Below are positions 29,471-39,405 of a DNA stretch of 44,313 bases, in pieces. Source of the stretch: Syntrophus aciditrophicus. GTDB taxonomy: Bacteria; Desulfobacterota; Syntrophia; Syntrophales; UBA5619. Both the position numbers and the translations under genes were made by a program. Location: contig DYLD01000005.1 of the NCBI GenBank assembly GCA_020722315.1, forward strand, positions 1-44,313, read 5' to 3'. The notes under the pieces were generated by a model. It saw nothing but the letters and a program-made list of their open reading frames with translations. It did not search any database and was not told the origin of the DNA. Numbering within the stretch: the first letter of the stretch is position 1; each line of letters opens with the position of its first letter.

Positions 29471-29701
29471 ATGCTGATCCTGACAAGGAAGTTGGGAGAA
29501 CAGATTGCAATCGGCGATAATATTAAGATAACCCTTCTGGAGATTAAAGGTAGACAGGTGAAAATAGGGGTGGAGGCCCCGGCAGAGATTCCCGTTCACC
29601 GCGGCGAGGTTTATCGGATGATCCAGGAGGAAAACCTCCAGGCTGCTGCCTTTGCTAACGAGCTGTCGGATGTCTGGGGACGTCTGAAAAAAAAACGATG
29701 A
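29471..29701 (+). CDS. csrA: Carbon storage regulator CsrA
   Basis: Small RNA-binding dimer that recognises GGA in hairpin loops and blocks translation. The sequence [20 protein letters not shown], then [20 protein letters not shown], is diagnostic. At 76 residues it has a normal length with a slightly long helical tail. It stands between flgL and fliW, the arrangement in which FliW sequesters CsrA. A likely target is the fliC leader (36115-36130). Confidence 0.97.
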
Positions 29702-29792: not shown

Positions 29793-30275
29793 ATGAAAAT
29801 CAAGACCACGCGTTTTGGAGAGATTGACGTCAAAGAGGAAGAGTTCATTGTCATGAAGGGAGCCATCCTCGGATTTGAACATCTCAAGCGGTATGTATTG
29901 CTGCAGCATAATACGAAAACGCCCCTTTGGTGGTTCCAGTCTGTTGATGACCCCGCCGTTGCATTTGTCGTCATCAATCCGCTTCTTGTCAAACCTGATT
30001 ATTCCCCGGTCTTTGCCGCAGGCGATTTGGAACTGCTTGACATTAAGGAAGAGGCGGATATGGCCGCGCTGTGCATCGTAACAATCCGTTCTGCGCCGTT
30101 TAAGGTGACGGCCAACCTGCGCGCGCCGATTCTGATTAACAGCCGAAAAAGGATCGCCGGTCAGTTTGTTCTTGAGGATCCGATTTATCCGATCCAGTAT
30201 GAAGTTGTTGAACAACCCCACGAGAATGGCGACGTTCCGCCTGGTAAGCTTGAACCCACTATCGCGCCGCTTTAG
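29793..30275 (+). CDS. fliW: Flagellar assembly factor FliW
   Basis: Binds CsrA and flagellin alternately: when flagellin is free it holds FliW, releasing CsrA to block flagellin translation. Typical motifs are TRFGEIDVKEEEFIVMKGAILGFEHLKRYVL, PLWWFQSVDDPAVAFVVINPL and LRAPILINSRKRIAGQFVLED. At 160 residues it is normal. 91 bp after csrA. Its stop is 18 bp from the stop of the opposite-strand flaG. Confidence 0.96.
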   Translation: MKIKTTRFGEIDVKEEEFIVMKGAILGFEHLKRYVLLQHNTKTPLWWFQSVDDPAVAFVVINPLLVKPDYSPVFAAGDLELLDIKEEADMAALCIVTIRSAPFKVTANLRAPILINSRKRIAGQFVLEDPIYPIQYEVVEQPHENGDVPPGKLEPTIAPL

Positions 30276-30715: not shown

Positions 30716-31189
30716 TCATGTTTTGATGCTCAGAAACCTCTGGTTTTGTTTTGCGCGCTTGCTATAGCCCCTAAGGCCCATCCTTTCCTTGTGGATTGCC
30801 GAAAGCCCGTTTGTTAGTTCGTCGAGCTTACCCGCTGCGATGGCTTCGCATTCCTGGTTTATTGCAAAAGCCTGTTTCAGTTGTTCGTTTATCTGATCCG
30901 TAATTTCTTTCATCGTCTGGATTTCAGCCGACTTCTTTTCTGCGTTGAGCGGCTTTGGATAACGGGCCAGCCGCCTGTCCAACGCATCCATCGTTGCGAT
31001 GAGCCCCGTACGGCGCGTTATGAATCCGACAGCCGTTTTCATTTCTCCTTTGTTGAGCGCATCCTTGAGCTTAACCGTACAGTCGTAAAAATCCTTGCCA
31101 GCCTTCAGTTTTGTCTGGAGGATGTCCATTTCAGTACGGCTGTTTGCCGAGGTTTCTTTTAGTTCCCATGTTTCCCTTTTTTTATCCAT
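30716..31189 (-). CDS. FliT-like helical protein
   Basis: 157 residues, almost entirely helical with charged heptads and no membrane segment (LKDALNKGEMKTAVGFITRRTGLIATMDALDRRLARY). FliT chaperones of FliD are of this size and are encoded after fliS, and the FliT-type 'cluster' of acidic and basic residues in a four-helix frame fits. Sequence similarity to a named family is weak, so the call rests on position and composition. It lies between fliS and flaG. Confidence 0.6.
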   Translation of the reverse strand: MDKKRETWELKETSANSRTEMDILQTKLKAGKDFYDCTVKLKDALNKGEMKTAVGFITRRTGLIATMDALDRRLARYPKPLNAEKKSAEIQTMKEITDQINEQLKQAFAINQECEAIAAGKLDELTNGLSAIHKERMGLRGYSKRAKQNQRFLSIKT

Positions 31190-34946: not shown

Positions 34947-36056
34947 TTACCGGAACAGCGTAAGAACCTGCTGCGGCGCCACGTTCGCCTGTGCCAGCAT
35001 CGCCGTGCCCGCCTGGACCAGAATCTGGTTCTTCGTAAACGTGGCCATTTCGGCTGCCATATCCACGTCGCGGATCACCGATTCCGCCGCCTGGACGTTC
35101 TCGATGATGGAGGCAAGATTCGCCGCCGAGTAGCCAAGGCGGTTCTGCGCGGCGCCGATGTTGCCCCGGACGCCGTTCAGCGTGCCTATGGCGTTATCCA
35201 CCACGGCAAGGAACTCCTGCGCCTCCGCCTGGGTATCCAGCCTGTCTTTAACTAAGCCCGGGTCAAGAGCTCCAGTCTGGACGTTACCTAGCAGAATGCC
35301 GATCCGGTCGTTCACCGTGTTTTTCGCGCCGACCTGGAAGTCGGAGGCCGTGGCCGTATGCGCAATAATAGTTCCATCAGATGCTGCACCAAAGTGTTCA
35401 TTCAGCGTCAGCGTAAGCCCCAGGGCATCAAACCTTACTTCCTTGGTTTGTCCTGTGGGGGGCGCTGTAACGCCATAGACGGTTTGTGAAACTCGCCCGC
35501 TGGCTAATGTAGCGCTGACGGTGATGTTTCCACCGGTGACGGTTGCCACGTTGTATGTTTGGGCGGACTGCAACCCGGTCGCGCCCTGTAAGCCATGTGC
35601 CGCGGTCAGGGTGCCTCCGGAGATGGTAACCCCAAAGGTACCATTCAGGAGTTTTGTGCCCGCATATTCCGTTACGTTGGCAATTCGATTAATTTCATCG
35701 ATGAGCTTGTTCCCCTCCGCGTTGATCTTGTCCAGGTTCGATCCCGCGTTGGACGATGCGGCCTGCGTTGCAAGCTCTTTGAGTCTGGTCAACATGTCGC
35801 CGATCTGATCCGTCGCCCCTTCGGCTACCTGCAAAAGTGAGTTGGCCTCCGCCGTGTTCCGGCTGGCGACCTTGTAGCTGGCGATATCGGCCCGGAAGGC
35901 CTGAGAAATAGAAAGCCCTGCCGCGTCGTCGGCGGCCCTGTTGATGCGGTAGCCGGAAGAAAGTCTCTCGAGAGACTTTGCCAGCGCGCTGTCGGAAATG
36001 GTCAAATGCCTGTGCGCATTCATTGCCGCGATGTTATTCTGAATTCTGAGTCCCAT
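34947..36056 (-). CDS. fliC: Flagellin FliC
   Basis: Filament subunit. The N-terminal domain has the conserved MGLRIQNNIAAMNAHRHL and LSSGYRINRAADDAAGLSIS; the C-terminal domain has NRLGYSAANLASIIENVQAA and ends VAPQQVLTLFR. At 369 residues it has a short variable middle (about 140-250), rich in Thr, Ser and Gly. This is the exposed part and a possible site for O-linked sugar. AAGGAGGA lies 8 bases ahead of ATG. Its leader carries a CsrA-type site and its promoter looks sigma-54 dependent. Confidence 0.97.
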   Translation of the reverse strand: MGLRIQNNIAAMNAHRHLTISDSALAKSLERLSSGYRINRAADDAAGLSISQAFRADIASYKVASRNTAEANSLLQVAEGATDQIGDMLTRLKELATQAASSNAGSNLDKINAEGNKLIDEINRIANVTEYAGTKLLNGTFGVTISGGTLTAAHGLQGATGLQSAQTYNVATVTGGNITVSATLASGRVSQTVYGVTAPPTGQTKEVRFDALGLTLTLNEHFGAASDGTIIAHTATASDFQVGAKNTVNDRIGILLGNVQTGALDPGLVKDRLDTQAEAQEFLAVVDNAIGTLNGVRGNIGAAQNRLGYSAANLASIIENVQAAESVIRDVDMAAEMATFTKNQILVQAGTAMLAQANVAPQQVLTLFR

Positions 36057-36064
36057 AATTATTA

Positions 36065-36130
36065 TCCTCCTTGATTTTTTATTGAAGCCCGAACCTTCGG
36101 GTTCGAGAGCTTCTCCGGCATCCTTGCCGG
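36065..36130 (-). promoter_or_regulatory. fliC leader with two hairpins and CsrA-type sites
   Basis: In the minus-strand RNA, CCGGC-AAGGAU-GCCGG (plus coordinates 36130-36115) puts AAGGA in a 6-base loop of a 5-bp stem, and CAAGGAUG is the core of the CsrA consensus. A second hairpin follows (36113-36084; outer GAAGC with GCUUC, inner CGAACC with GGUUCG). The Shine-Dalgarno AAGGAGGA (36072-36065) is itself a second CsrA-like GGA site. Confidence 0.7.
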
Positions 36131-36174
36131 TGTGATTGGTTTTTTTTACGTTAAATCCGGTTCAATAAAATAAA

Positions 36175-36190
36175 TGCTGCGACGTTGCCT
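36175..36190 (-). promoter_or_regulatory. Sigma-54 promoter of fliC
   Basis: On the minus strand AGGCAACGTCGCAGCA has GG and GC 10 bases apart with GGCA and GCA matches; the -12 box is CAGCA instead of TTGCA. Start point near 36164, leader ~108 bases. Confidence 0.62.
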
Positions 36191-36289
36191 GAAGCTTCAC
36201 CTCCTTCCCGTTTTTTATTTCTTTCGTTTGCTTTATTTATCGGAAGGATGAAGGGGAAACTTTAGCGTCTTTTTTGTGAAGGGGAAAAT

Positions 36290-36324: not shown

Positions 36325-39300
36325 CTAGAGGCGGGATTCCAGCAGCGCGACCAGGCTGTTTGCCTGAACCTCTAAATAAGGACGATCCTTCAGGGCCGCA
36401 TGGATGTCTTGCAGAACGCCGAGCATGTCCGTCAGATTGTTGATAACGCGCCGGCGGTTCAGATGGAGCTCTTCAAGGATCCTGTCGCAACTCTCAACAA
36501 ATTCAACAAGTCTCGATTGTTTCAGTTCTATTTCGGCCAGATGCATCAGCGCCGCGATGTCATGGGGATTGCACTCCAGAACACGTTCGATAAAAATTCT
36601 CGCCTCTTCGAATTGACCAAGCTTGAGGCTTATTTTGCCGAGATGAAGCCACGCGTCCGATTGGTCCGGGAAAAGCCCGATCGCCTGTTTGAAATACTCG
36701 ATGGCCTTTCCATTGTGGTTTGTTTCTTCATAAAAGCTTCCGATGGCGCACAATGTTCCGTAATGGGCAGGTTCTTTCCGGATGCTTTTTTGCAGCGCCT
36801 CAAAAGCGAGCTCCTGTCGGCCTTTTTTCATACGGAACGCCGCAAGGCGGTTTAAGACCACAACGTCATCGTTACCCAGATCCCATAATTTTTCAAGGCA
36901 TCGTTCTTCGTTTTCCGCGTTACCCCTTTTGCTATGCAGCTTGGCGAGCATGTACCAGATTTCCTGCTGTTGGGGCGCTCTTTCCAGCGCGGCCTGAAGA
37001 TAAGTCTCGGCCAGTTCAAGATCGCCCGATCGGTCAAGATGGAAACAGCCTGCATTCCACCAGACCTCCCACGGGTTTTCCGAGCCGGCGGATGCCGACT
37101 GATACTCCTTTTCCATCTTTGCGGTCTCGCCGAGGCCGTGCCATGCATGGCCGATCAAAAGATGGATGGAAGTCCCTTCGTTTAAGGTTGAATTAATGAC
37201 CAGTCCCGCCTTCTCCGGATTTTTCTCAAAGATGTCGCGAAGTTCAAGAAATCGCTTGCCGTAGCTCAGGACGTCCTTCCACTCGGATCTTTCGGCGGCG
37301 ATCATTGCCAGCATATAGTGCGAGTCGAGATGATCGGGATAGATATTAAGGGCATCGAGGGAATACTCCCGGGCCTTATCCAGATTGCCCATCCGGAAAA
37401 AGGCCATCGCCGCGTTATGGCGGGCCCAGATGTAAAGGGGATGGGTATCGTTTTTTCGGCTTGCCAGTTCGATCGCCTTTACCGACTCGTCTGCGGCCTC
37501 CCTGTTCATCCCCCGGGAAAGATAGGATACGCCCAGATAGTGATGGGGCATGGGGTTGTCAGGCTCTTCCTCTATCTGTTTTTTCAGAAGTCCTGCCGTT
37601 CGCAGGAATTTCTCGTGGGCCTTTTTTTCATCGACGTTGTAGCCGTAATGCATCAATTCGATTTGTGAGGCCTTTGCCGAACGTCCGCCCACGACGCGGT
37701 TGTGTACGATTCCCTCGTAATGGATGACGCCGTTGTTGCGGAAAAGCCTTTCGGAATTATGTCTGGCCGTCTTATGACCTCCGCTGTAAATGCTTATGAC
37801 ATTGGCGTAGATGATATCCGCATCGCCTGCCTCGCGGACGACTTGCCGTATTTTCTGCCCACTGCTTTGAAGCATCTCCTCATCGGCGTCTATCACAAAT
37901 ATCCAGTCCTTCGTCGCATAAGACATCGCCTGATTCCGTGCCTTGCTGAAGCTCCCCTCCCACGGATGGAAATAGATTTTGTCGGTGTATTTTCTTGCAA
38001 TGTCCACCGTTTGATCCGTGGAGCCCGTGTCAACAATGACGATTTCATCCACGTAGTCCTTGACGCTTTTGAGGCACTGGTCCAGGAAAGCCTCCTCGTT
38101 TTTCACGATCATGCAGCAACTGATCGTCGGCTCTTTTCCCGGAGGACCGATTTTTTTATTGATCTCATCCAGCAGTTGGTGAACGGTTTGATCCCCCTGA
38201 CTCAACGTGTCCGCCTTGAGCAGATACGACCGCGCCTCATTGAGAAGGCCCTTCTTGTGAAAGAATATGCCCGCCGCCCGCGCGACCGTAAACGGTTCCG
38301 GCGCCCAATCCATTGCCTTTTGAATCAGCTTTTCCGCCTTTTTCCGATCGCCCATCTCGGCATAGGCGATGCCGACGAGGGTGCCGATATTCCATTCCTC
38401 CTTTAAGGATGACGTGACGAGATTGCCGAATGCCTGCGGCGATTTCTGCTGGAGCTCAGAAAGTCTTATGTACTCGCCCCCGTGAAAAATGACCTTTCCC
38501 CACTGTTTCCAGTCGAAATAGACAAGGCTCAACATAAAATGGGAATCCACATGATTCGGATATTGCTTCAATGCTGAAACGCTGATAGCCTCCGCTTCCG
38601 CCAGGTTTTTTAATTTATAGCAGGATGCTGCGGCATTGTAATGGCTCCAGAGGTAGATGAGATTGGGATCCTTTCGTGCGCTGGAGAGTTCGATGGCCTT
38701 TTTGCTTGCCTCGTAGCTCTGCTCGAACATCCCCTGAGAGAGATACGAACATCCGAGGTAATGGTAGGTCCTCGGGTTGCCGGGGTCATCTTCCAGGTCC
38801 TTCTTGAGGAGGGAAACGGTCCTGTCAAACTTCTTTTGGGATGACTCCGGGTCAAGGTCGTAGCCGTAATGGATGAGCCTGATGGGGAATATCTTCGCGT
38901 TTGTGATCCCCACCAGACGGTTGTGCACCCTTCCTTCATAATGAATCTTACCGTTGTTTCTGAAAATCCTTTCCACGCAATGGAGGGCCTCGCCTCGCCC
39001 GTTTCTCAGCCTGCTGGATATTTCCACCATCACGGCGTCGATAGTTTTGTCCTGGATGGCCTTTCGTATAACCGGAATGCCCTCCTTTACCAGCTCCTCA
39101 TCGGCGTCAATCTGAAATATCCAGTCTCCGGTTGCATACTCCAGATAATGATTCCGCGCCTCGCTGAAGCTATCGTTCCAGGGATGAAAATAGATTTTGT
39201 CGGTATATTTCTTTGCAATATTAACCGTTTGATCCGTCGAGCCGGTATCCACCAGGATGATCTCGTCCGCAATCTCTTTAATGCTGTTCAGGCACCGATC

Positions 39301-39405
39301 AATGTTTTTTCCCTCGTTTTTAGCTATCAGACAGACCGAGATCTTGGGTGCTGTTGTTTGTATAACGGCCTTAGCGTTTTGTTTATTTCGTTTTTTCTTC
39401 TTCAC
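36325..39405 (-). CDS. Tandem GT2 glycosyltransferase with TPR repeats
   Basis: 1026 residues made of two similar units. Each has a GT2 (GT-A) domain followed by TPR helices. Unit 1: KISVCLIAKNEGKNIDRCLN (~21-40), VDTGSTDQT (~52-60), the DxD-type IDADEE (99-104). Unit 2: TISCCMIVKNEEAFLDQCLK (~427), VDTGSTDQT (~458-466), IDADEE (505-510). The units correspond over ~400 residues; a longer TPR array fills ~780-1026. Both retain the metal-binding motif, so both may be active. The family includes protein O- or S-glycosyltransferases with TPR targeting. Position beside fliC suggests flagellin glycosylation (inference); the donor is unknown. Confidence 0.85.
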   Translation of the reverse strand: MKKKKRNKQNAKAVIQTTAPKISVCLIAKNEGKNIDRCLNSIKEIADEIILVDTGSTDQTVNIAKKYTDKIYFHPWNDSFSEARNHYLEYATGDWIFQIDADEELVKEGIPVIRKAIQDKTIDAVMVEISSRLRNGRGEALHCVERIFRNNGKIHYEGRVHNRLVGITNAKIFPIRLIHYGYDLDPESSQKKFDRTVSLLKKDLEDDPGNPRTYHYLGCSYLSQGMFEQSYEASKKAIELSSARKDPNLIYLWSHYNAAASCYKLKNLAEAEAISVSALKQYPNHVDSHFMLSLVYFDWKQWGKVIFHGGEYIRLSELQQKSPQAFGNLVTSSLKEEWNIGTLVGIAYAEMGDRKKAEKLIQKAMDWAPEPFTVARAAGIFFHKKGLLNEARSYLLKADTLSQGDQTVHQLLDEINKKIGPPGKEPTISCCMIVKNEEAFLDQCLKSVKDYVDEIVIVDTGSTDQTVDIARKYTDKIYFHPWEGSFSKARNQAMSYATKDWIFVIDADEEMLQSSGQKIRQVVREAGDADIIYANVISIYSGGHKTARHNSERLFRNNGVIHYEGIVHNRVVGGRSAKASQIELMHYGYNVDEKKAHEKFLRTAGLLKKQIEEEPDNPMPHHYLGVSYLSRGMNREAADESVKAIELASRKNDTHPLYIWARHNAAMAFFRMGNLDKAREYSLDALNIYPDHLDSHYMLAMIAAERSEWKDVLSYGKRFLELRDIFEKNPEKAGLVINSTLNEGTSIHLLIGHAWHGLGETAKMEKEYQSASAGSENPWEVWWNAGCFHLDRSGDLELAETYLQAALERAPQQQEIWYMLAKLHSKRGNAENEERCLEKLWDLGNDDVVVLNRLAAFRMKKGRQELAFEALQKSIRKEPAHYGTLCAIGSFYEETNHNGKAIEYFKQAIGLFPDQSDAWLHLGKISLKLGQFEEARIFIERVLECNPHDIAALMHLAEIELKQSRLVEFVESCDRILEELHLNRRRVINNLTDMLGVLQDIHAALKDRPYLEVQANSLVALLESRL

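Follow-up and report, generated by a model that had tools for sequence, protein, structure and literature searches.

Does the leader of the flagellin gene fliC carry a site of translational control by CsrA and FliW, and, if so, how is that site built? An earlier note on this DNA had proposed such control from a hairpin loop and a ribosome-binding site in the leader. We examined the proposal in the whole stretch of DNA, 44,313 nucleotides from Syntrophus aciditrophicus (hereafter the window), in its host genome (3.02 Mb, 98% complete), and in the flagellin leaders of related genomes. The following features of the window carry the argument:

34947..36056, minus strand: fliC, flagellin of 369 aa (PF00669, E 1.7e-34; PF00700, E 3.4e-24)
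36064..36075, minus strand: SL2, a weak 3-bp hexaloop AUC-AAGGAG-GAU around the Shine-Dalgarno sequence (SD), the putative second CsrA-type site
36084..36113, minus strand: hairpin between the two CsrA-type sites, read as a spacer (fold z −4.3 against shuffles)
36115..36130, minus strand: SL1, CsrA-type hairpin CCGGC-AAGGAU-GCCGG, conserved and covarying in relatives
36197..36206, minus strand: upstream element AAGGAGGUGA, a perfect anti-SD complement that no start codon follows, from pattern counts in leaders
36236..36264, minus strand: sigma-28-type promoter by sequence reading, with −35 TAAAGTTT at 36257-36264 and −10 CCGATAAA at 36236-36243
29471..29701, plus strand: csrA, 76 aa, the sole copy in the genome (Pfam E 1.6e-24)
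29793..30275, plus strand: fliW, 160 aa, the sole copy in the genome (PF02623, E 5.7e-37)

The fliC leader and the csrA-fliW pair

The minus-strand leader reads ...CACCGGCAAGGATGCCGGAGAAGCTCTCGAACCCGAAGGTTCGGGCTTCAATAAAAAATCAAGGAGGATAATAATT-ATG, with the start codon at 36056. SL1 consists of a 5-bp stem and the loop AAGGAU (36120-36125), whose GGA occupies 36121-36123, and the SD, AAGGAGG at 36066-36072, ends 9 nt before the ATG. Because the sigma-28-type promoter sits at 36236-36264, the transcript begins outside the interval that the earlier note had considered; it probably starts near 36229, which would make the leader about 170 nt long. The promoter, the weak hexaloop around the SD and the upstream anti-SD complement had all been missed in that note. 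The promoter motif recurs at the equivalent position in most leaders of the order. Four leaders (L112, L117, L118 and L036) apparently carry a sigma-54-like TGGCAT...GCA motif in its place and retain the upstream element, SL1 and the SD hexaloop despite the apparent replacement. The fold energy of the entire fliC leader is ordinary (z −1.3), and the local hairpins alone stand out. A search of the leader and the window against Rfam returned no family at gathering score.

The genome-wide search found one CsrA and one FliW, both encoded inside the window, and the Pfam matches listed above bear out the description of the two genes as intact members of the fliC locus. The CsrA of the window retains L4, R6, V42, H43 and R44, which we take to be its RNA-binding residues, together with the C-terminal extension. 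Its residues 1-67 can be aligned with chain 1t3o from B. subtilis, and for FliW the match is to the corresponding chain of 5dmb. The genome encodes FliW as well as a CsrA that is intact, its RNA-binding residues and the extension for FliW included. The two genes occur jointly in exactly 16 of 61 relatives, all 16 of which have flagellin, and the remainder have neither. Of 395 phylum genomes, 187 carry the pair, 6 have CsrA alone and 3 have FliW alone, so that 386 have both or neither. FliW has been reported to be anticorrelated with the BarA-UvrY sRNA route (PMC4682653), and this fits the picture in this order, where CsrA appears to belong to a flagellar module.

Several observations on the surroundings of these genes were made in passing. 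One genome, G053, has a leader with an SL1-like site (L017), yet csrA and fliW were not found in it; since its assembly is only 80% complete, their absence may be a gap. Another leader of the same order, L126 (G062), also has an SL1-like site. Adjoining the flagellin leader of the window, positions 36325-39405 (minus strand) encode a protein of 1026 aa that combines TPR repeats with two glycosyltransferase-2 domains, and a similar glycosyltransferase lies downstream of fliW in a distant genome (L271); these enzymes perhaps glycosylate flagellin. A 157-aa open reading frame between flaG and fliS (30716-31189, minus strand) has no Pfam match and, judged from its position, is perhaps a flagellar chaperone.

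Two GGA hexaloops in the flagellin leader

The loop of SL1 matches the CsrA core CARGGAUG at 8 of 8 positions when the closing C-G pair is counted, in accordance with the original reading. The strict motif GGCANGGAHGCC has 11 copies in the genome and its reversed control pattern 5. The fliC copy is the only one in a leader before an SD and a start codon; the match exceeds chance. None of the 10 further sites qualified as another CsrA-controlled leader by this motif, and most of them fall within open frames. Weaker CsrA targets may nevertheless exist elsewhere in the genome.

We compared 137 flagellin leaders from relatives and the phylum, nearly all of them from phylum members. At positions 3-5 of hexaloops closed by a stem of at least 5 bp, GGA was present in 53 of the 137 leaders, and the next commonest triplet in 7. 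When sites were chosen by the loop string CANGGAHG alone (n=94), the outer pairs 1 to 3 of the stem formed in 92, 87 and 76 cases, against shuffled expectations of 70, 70 and 35. The third pair was G-C in 28, T-A in 23, C-G in 16 and A-T in 6. The comparison with relatives that the earlier note had called for thus came out in its favor: the loop GGA is kept while the stem varies and compensates, both in the order and in numerous leaders from the phylum. Moreover, SL1 was found in 50 of 83 leaders from genomes with FliW and in 2 of 14 from genomes without it (p 0.0015, a guide only, as the leader sequences are related). The other 33 of the 83 FliW-positive leaders in the phylum sample, for example those of family f58, have no recognizable SL1.

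GGA hexaloops were also seen outside the phylum, in flagellin leaders of Actinobacteria, Gemmatimonadota, Chloroflexi and Clostridia, about 38-50 nt 5′ of the flagellin start (L041, L042, L046, L048, L053, L054, L065, L079, L100, L104, L108 and L110). The sampled beta- and gammaproteobacterial flagellin leaders had none. The occurrences outside the phylum suggest that the operator may be very old or widely shared.

The ribosome-binding site had been proposed as the second GGA site, and the comparison upholds this, since in the relatives the SD lies in a covarying hexaloop. AAGGAGG is preceded by C in every one of the 75 leaders with SL1 and a recognizable SD, as in the CsrA consensus. The two outer pairs around the loop covary (T-A 67 and A-T 4 in one, A-T 45 and T-A 18 in the other), and the observed pair counts were reached by 0 of 1000 shuffles. 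At least 3 bp can form around the AAGGAG loop in 65 of the 75 leaders; of 21 other genes that have an SD of this kind, only 1 can do so. These results identify AUC-AAGGAG-GAU in the window as a weak, putative CsrA-type hairpin around the SD, which gives the flagellin leader no fewer than two GGA sites, the second overlying the SD.

The converse pattern, a conserved stem whose loop has lost the GGA, had been named beforehand as evidence against CsrA control. Some divergent lineages do keep a GC stem without the loop GGA, and in these CsrA is altered as well. The loop reads AUGAU or AUGAG in five leaders of families f72 and f43, and AUUGAU, ACUGAG or AGUGAG in a few others. We noted such loops in L153, L154, L155, L157 and L239, with csrA sequences L269-L273, and in L181, L223 and L237, with csrA sequences L263, L262 and L266; L174 was scored "alt" by the script, yet has a GGA hairpin. 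The CsrA proteins of the genomes with GGA-less loops have no His43, and those of f72 and f43 are the most divergent of 19 compared and carry a 3-residue insert. Within the 66 genomes whose CsrA was read, the stem without GGA was seen only with a non-His43 CsrA. Residue 43 alone was rejected as a predictor of loop type, because many Tyr, Phe and Leu variants also have GGA loops. It is possible that in these lineages the specificity of CsrA has naturally changed together with its site.

The hairpin between the sites and the element upstream

Among 86 distinct leaders, the linker from SL1 to the SD is between 7 and 91 nt long. Linkers below 25 nt are unstructured in 48 of 51 cases, whereas 28 of the 35 longer ones fold with z below −2 (mean z −3.2), nearly always into one hairpin. 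Control segments of equal length, taken from immediately 5′ of SL1 in these leaders, had a mean z of −0.34, with 5 of 35 below −2. The hairpin sequences are unconserved and unrelated across many families, so linker hairpins arose repeatedly. In the window, formation of the hairpin (z −4.3) reduces the 42-nt linker to 12 unpaired nt, while the linear gap from GGA to GGA is 53 nt. Two leaders, L009 and L191, have 27-nt linkers without a hairpin, and no hairpin-free linker longer than 27 nt was seen in the 86 leaders. The earlier note had located the hairpin correctly and regarded it as a separator of the two sites. We find that this role is better replaced by another: the pattern suggests an adjustable spacer that would hold both CsrA sites within reach of one dimer. 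The simplest reading is that inserts in the linker survive only when they fold away. Since unpaired linker length did not differ between real and shuffled linkers, the argument for a spacer draws on how stably the linkers fold and on the restriction of such folds to long linkers.

The same hairpin could belong to a CsrA operator without serving as a spacer, either as a neutral insertion or as an RNA-stability hairpin, with no bridging between the sites or with a longer gap tolerated. We regard this as a real but lesser possibility. CsrA dimers bridge sites 10-63 nt apart, best above 18 nt (PMC7652899), so the 53-nt gap is already inside the published range even unfolded; the failure of unpaired length to discriminate points the same way, as does the resemblance of some inserts to dispersed repeat palindromes, which would form hairpins in any case. 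Against it stand the confinement of stable hairpins to long linkers, as opposed to short linkers and equal-length controls, the lack of any longer linker without a hairpin, and the repeated origin of the hairpins. The inserts with this resemblance are the long ones of L143, L160, L206, L180, L158 and L162; their palindromes are of an AACTCG type and a GAAAGCTGAAAGC type, which gives the impression that the operator has taken up repetitive or mobile hairpins.

Farther 5′, the window contains AAGGAGGUGA with 10 of 10 positions matched. At least 9 of 10 positions are matched in 45 of 86 leaders, compared with about 1% in shuffles. Together with its preferred flank the element becomes GAAAGGAGGUGA, which we take to be the complement of the 16S 3′ end, on the textbook 16S end, from which that of the host may differ. 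The element lies a median of 30 nt past the −10 element, near the mRNA 5′ end, and is more fixed relative to the promoter (sd 7 nt) than to SL1 (sd 17 nt). A function as the SD of a small open reading frame was rejected: a start codon at the right distance followed by at least 5 codons was present in only 4 of 61 leaders. An SD-like sequence near the 5′ end with no following start codon is the hallmark of a STAB-SD, and in this the element resembles that of cry3A in Bacillus thuringiensis, which likewise initiates no translation (PMC4113751). The cry3A STAB-SD acts by blocking RNase J1 (PMC4113751), however, and the best match to the RNase J model TIGR00649 in the host genome (98% complete) scored 21 bits against a cut-off of 400. 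STAB-SD action via RNase J was rejected on this ground. The base preceding the upstream element is mostly A, while that preceding true SDs is the CsrA-like C, and this difference suggests that the two are tuned to different partners. Our guess is that the upstream element acts as a ribosome standby site or as a competitor.

If instead the element were a third CsrA site, and not a ribosome-binding one, the AAGGA core within AAGGAGGUGA would be accounted for, as would its greater frequency alongside SL1 (45 of 84 FliW-positive leaders with SL1 vs 14 of 51 without). We consider this less likely. The preferred flanks, GA before and UGA after, lengthen the complement to 16S rRNA and not the CsrA consensus; the preceding base is A, not C; and AAGGAGGUGA also occurs in 3 of 12 leaders from FliW-negative genomes lacking SL1.

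A candidate translational operator and its relatives

We propose with high confidence that the leader of fliC serves CsrA as a translational operator, with repression relieved by FliW and the gap between the sites shortened by a hairpin. Sequence and comparison show the pair of covarying hexaloops, the pattern of spacers and the joint occurrence of csrA, fliW and flagellin; from these we infer that in this organism CsrA binds the leader, bridges both sites as a dimer and represses translation, and that FliW acts as the switch. A single CsrA dimer would place one face on SL1 (strong, AAGGAU) and the other on SL2 (weak, AAGGAG, the SD itself). The inter-site hairpin would fold 30 nt away and leave about 12 unpaired, so that the 53-nt gap would act like the short gaps of the hairpin-less relatives. 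With SL2 occupied, the SD would be hidden and ribosomes blocked. Export of flagellin would leave free FliW to bind CsrA, which would then depart and allow flagellin to be translated; flagellin building up in the cell would bind FliW and restore repression. Very probably, then, flagellin is made only once FliW removes CsrA.

That the hairpins work without CsrA, by protecting the mRNA 5′ end or tuning SD accessibility around an incidental loop GGA, is highly improbable: a long leader with several hairpins and the 5′ SD-like stabilizer known from cry3A mRNA (PMC4113751) would be compatible with it, but the loop GGA stays through stem changes, SL1 presence follows FliW, the C before the SD is invariant in the SL1 leaders, and the lack of an RNase J over the curated cut-off weakens the known 5′-stabilizer route.

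Assignment of the fliC leader to the CsrA-FliW-flagellin switch, as first suggested, is thus supported by conservation of the sites, the co-occurrence of csrA and fliW and the CsrA residues, albeit with a variant architecture. The two-site layout had been likened to that of Bacillus hag. The likeness holds, although the closest precedent is Campylobacter jejuni flaA, B. subtilis hag being the founding case. CsrA binds each of the two GGA hexaloops of flaA, of which the second extends over the ribosome-binding site (PMC4894983). The two systems share a pair of GGA hexaloops, compensatory changes, csrA and fliW, and a flagellin target (PMC4894983). The flaA leader is 45 nt long with 21 nt between the GGAs, in contrast to about 170 nt and 53 nt here, and CsrA binding is proven for flaA (PMC4894983) and predicted here. 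The inter-site hairpin and the 5′ anti-SD complement are present here and not in flaA. B. subtilis hag has two CsrA sites, one over the SD, and SELEX shows that CsrA prefers ARGGAU in a six-base hairpin loop (PMC7652899). The two CsrA sites, the FliW antagonist and the C-terminal extension of CsrA are common to hag and the present system (PMC7652899, PMC6529632). Unlike in B. subtilis, csrA and fliW here face the flagellin cluster, with csrA first, and the spacer hairpin and the upstream element are additions relative to hag. Geobacter sulfurreducens, another former deltaproteobacterium, also has the CsrA and FliW pair; CsrA-FliW interaction and biofilm roles were shown there, with direct mRNA binding and the part of FliC left open (PMC13407953). 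Our results point to flagellin mRNA as a conserved CsrA target in orders related to G. sulfurreducens. We found no description of the spacer hairpin or the upstream rRNA-complementary element in the literature searched, which scarcely covered subscription journals.

We tentatively extend the proposal, as a reading somewhat less likely than not, to a three-part operator shared across the phylum. Its parts would be GAAAGGAGGUGA, recruiting the 30S subunit without a start codon, a strong CsrA hexaloop, and a second hexaloop bearing the SD. Interchangeable hairpins, some of them captured repeat palindromes, would hold the distance between the sites, inserts would be tolerated only if they fold away, and CsrA and the loop would have changed together in side lineages.

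The spacer pattern yields a simple, testable rule for the permitted distance between two CsrA sites, with dozens of natural variants. Studies of ribosome loading gain a concrete target in the 5′ rRNA-complementary element, and studies of CsrA specificity in the lineages with changes to both loop and CsrA. Overall, the CsrA-FliW-flagellin switch, studied chiefly in Bacillus and Campylobacter, would be extended to a large phylum of anaerobes, most of them uncultured.
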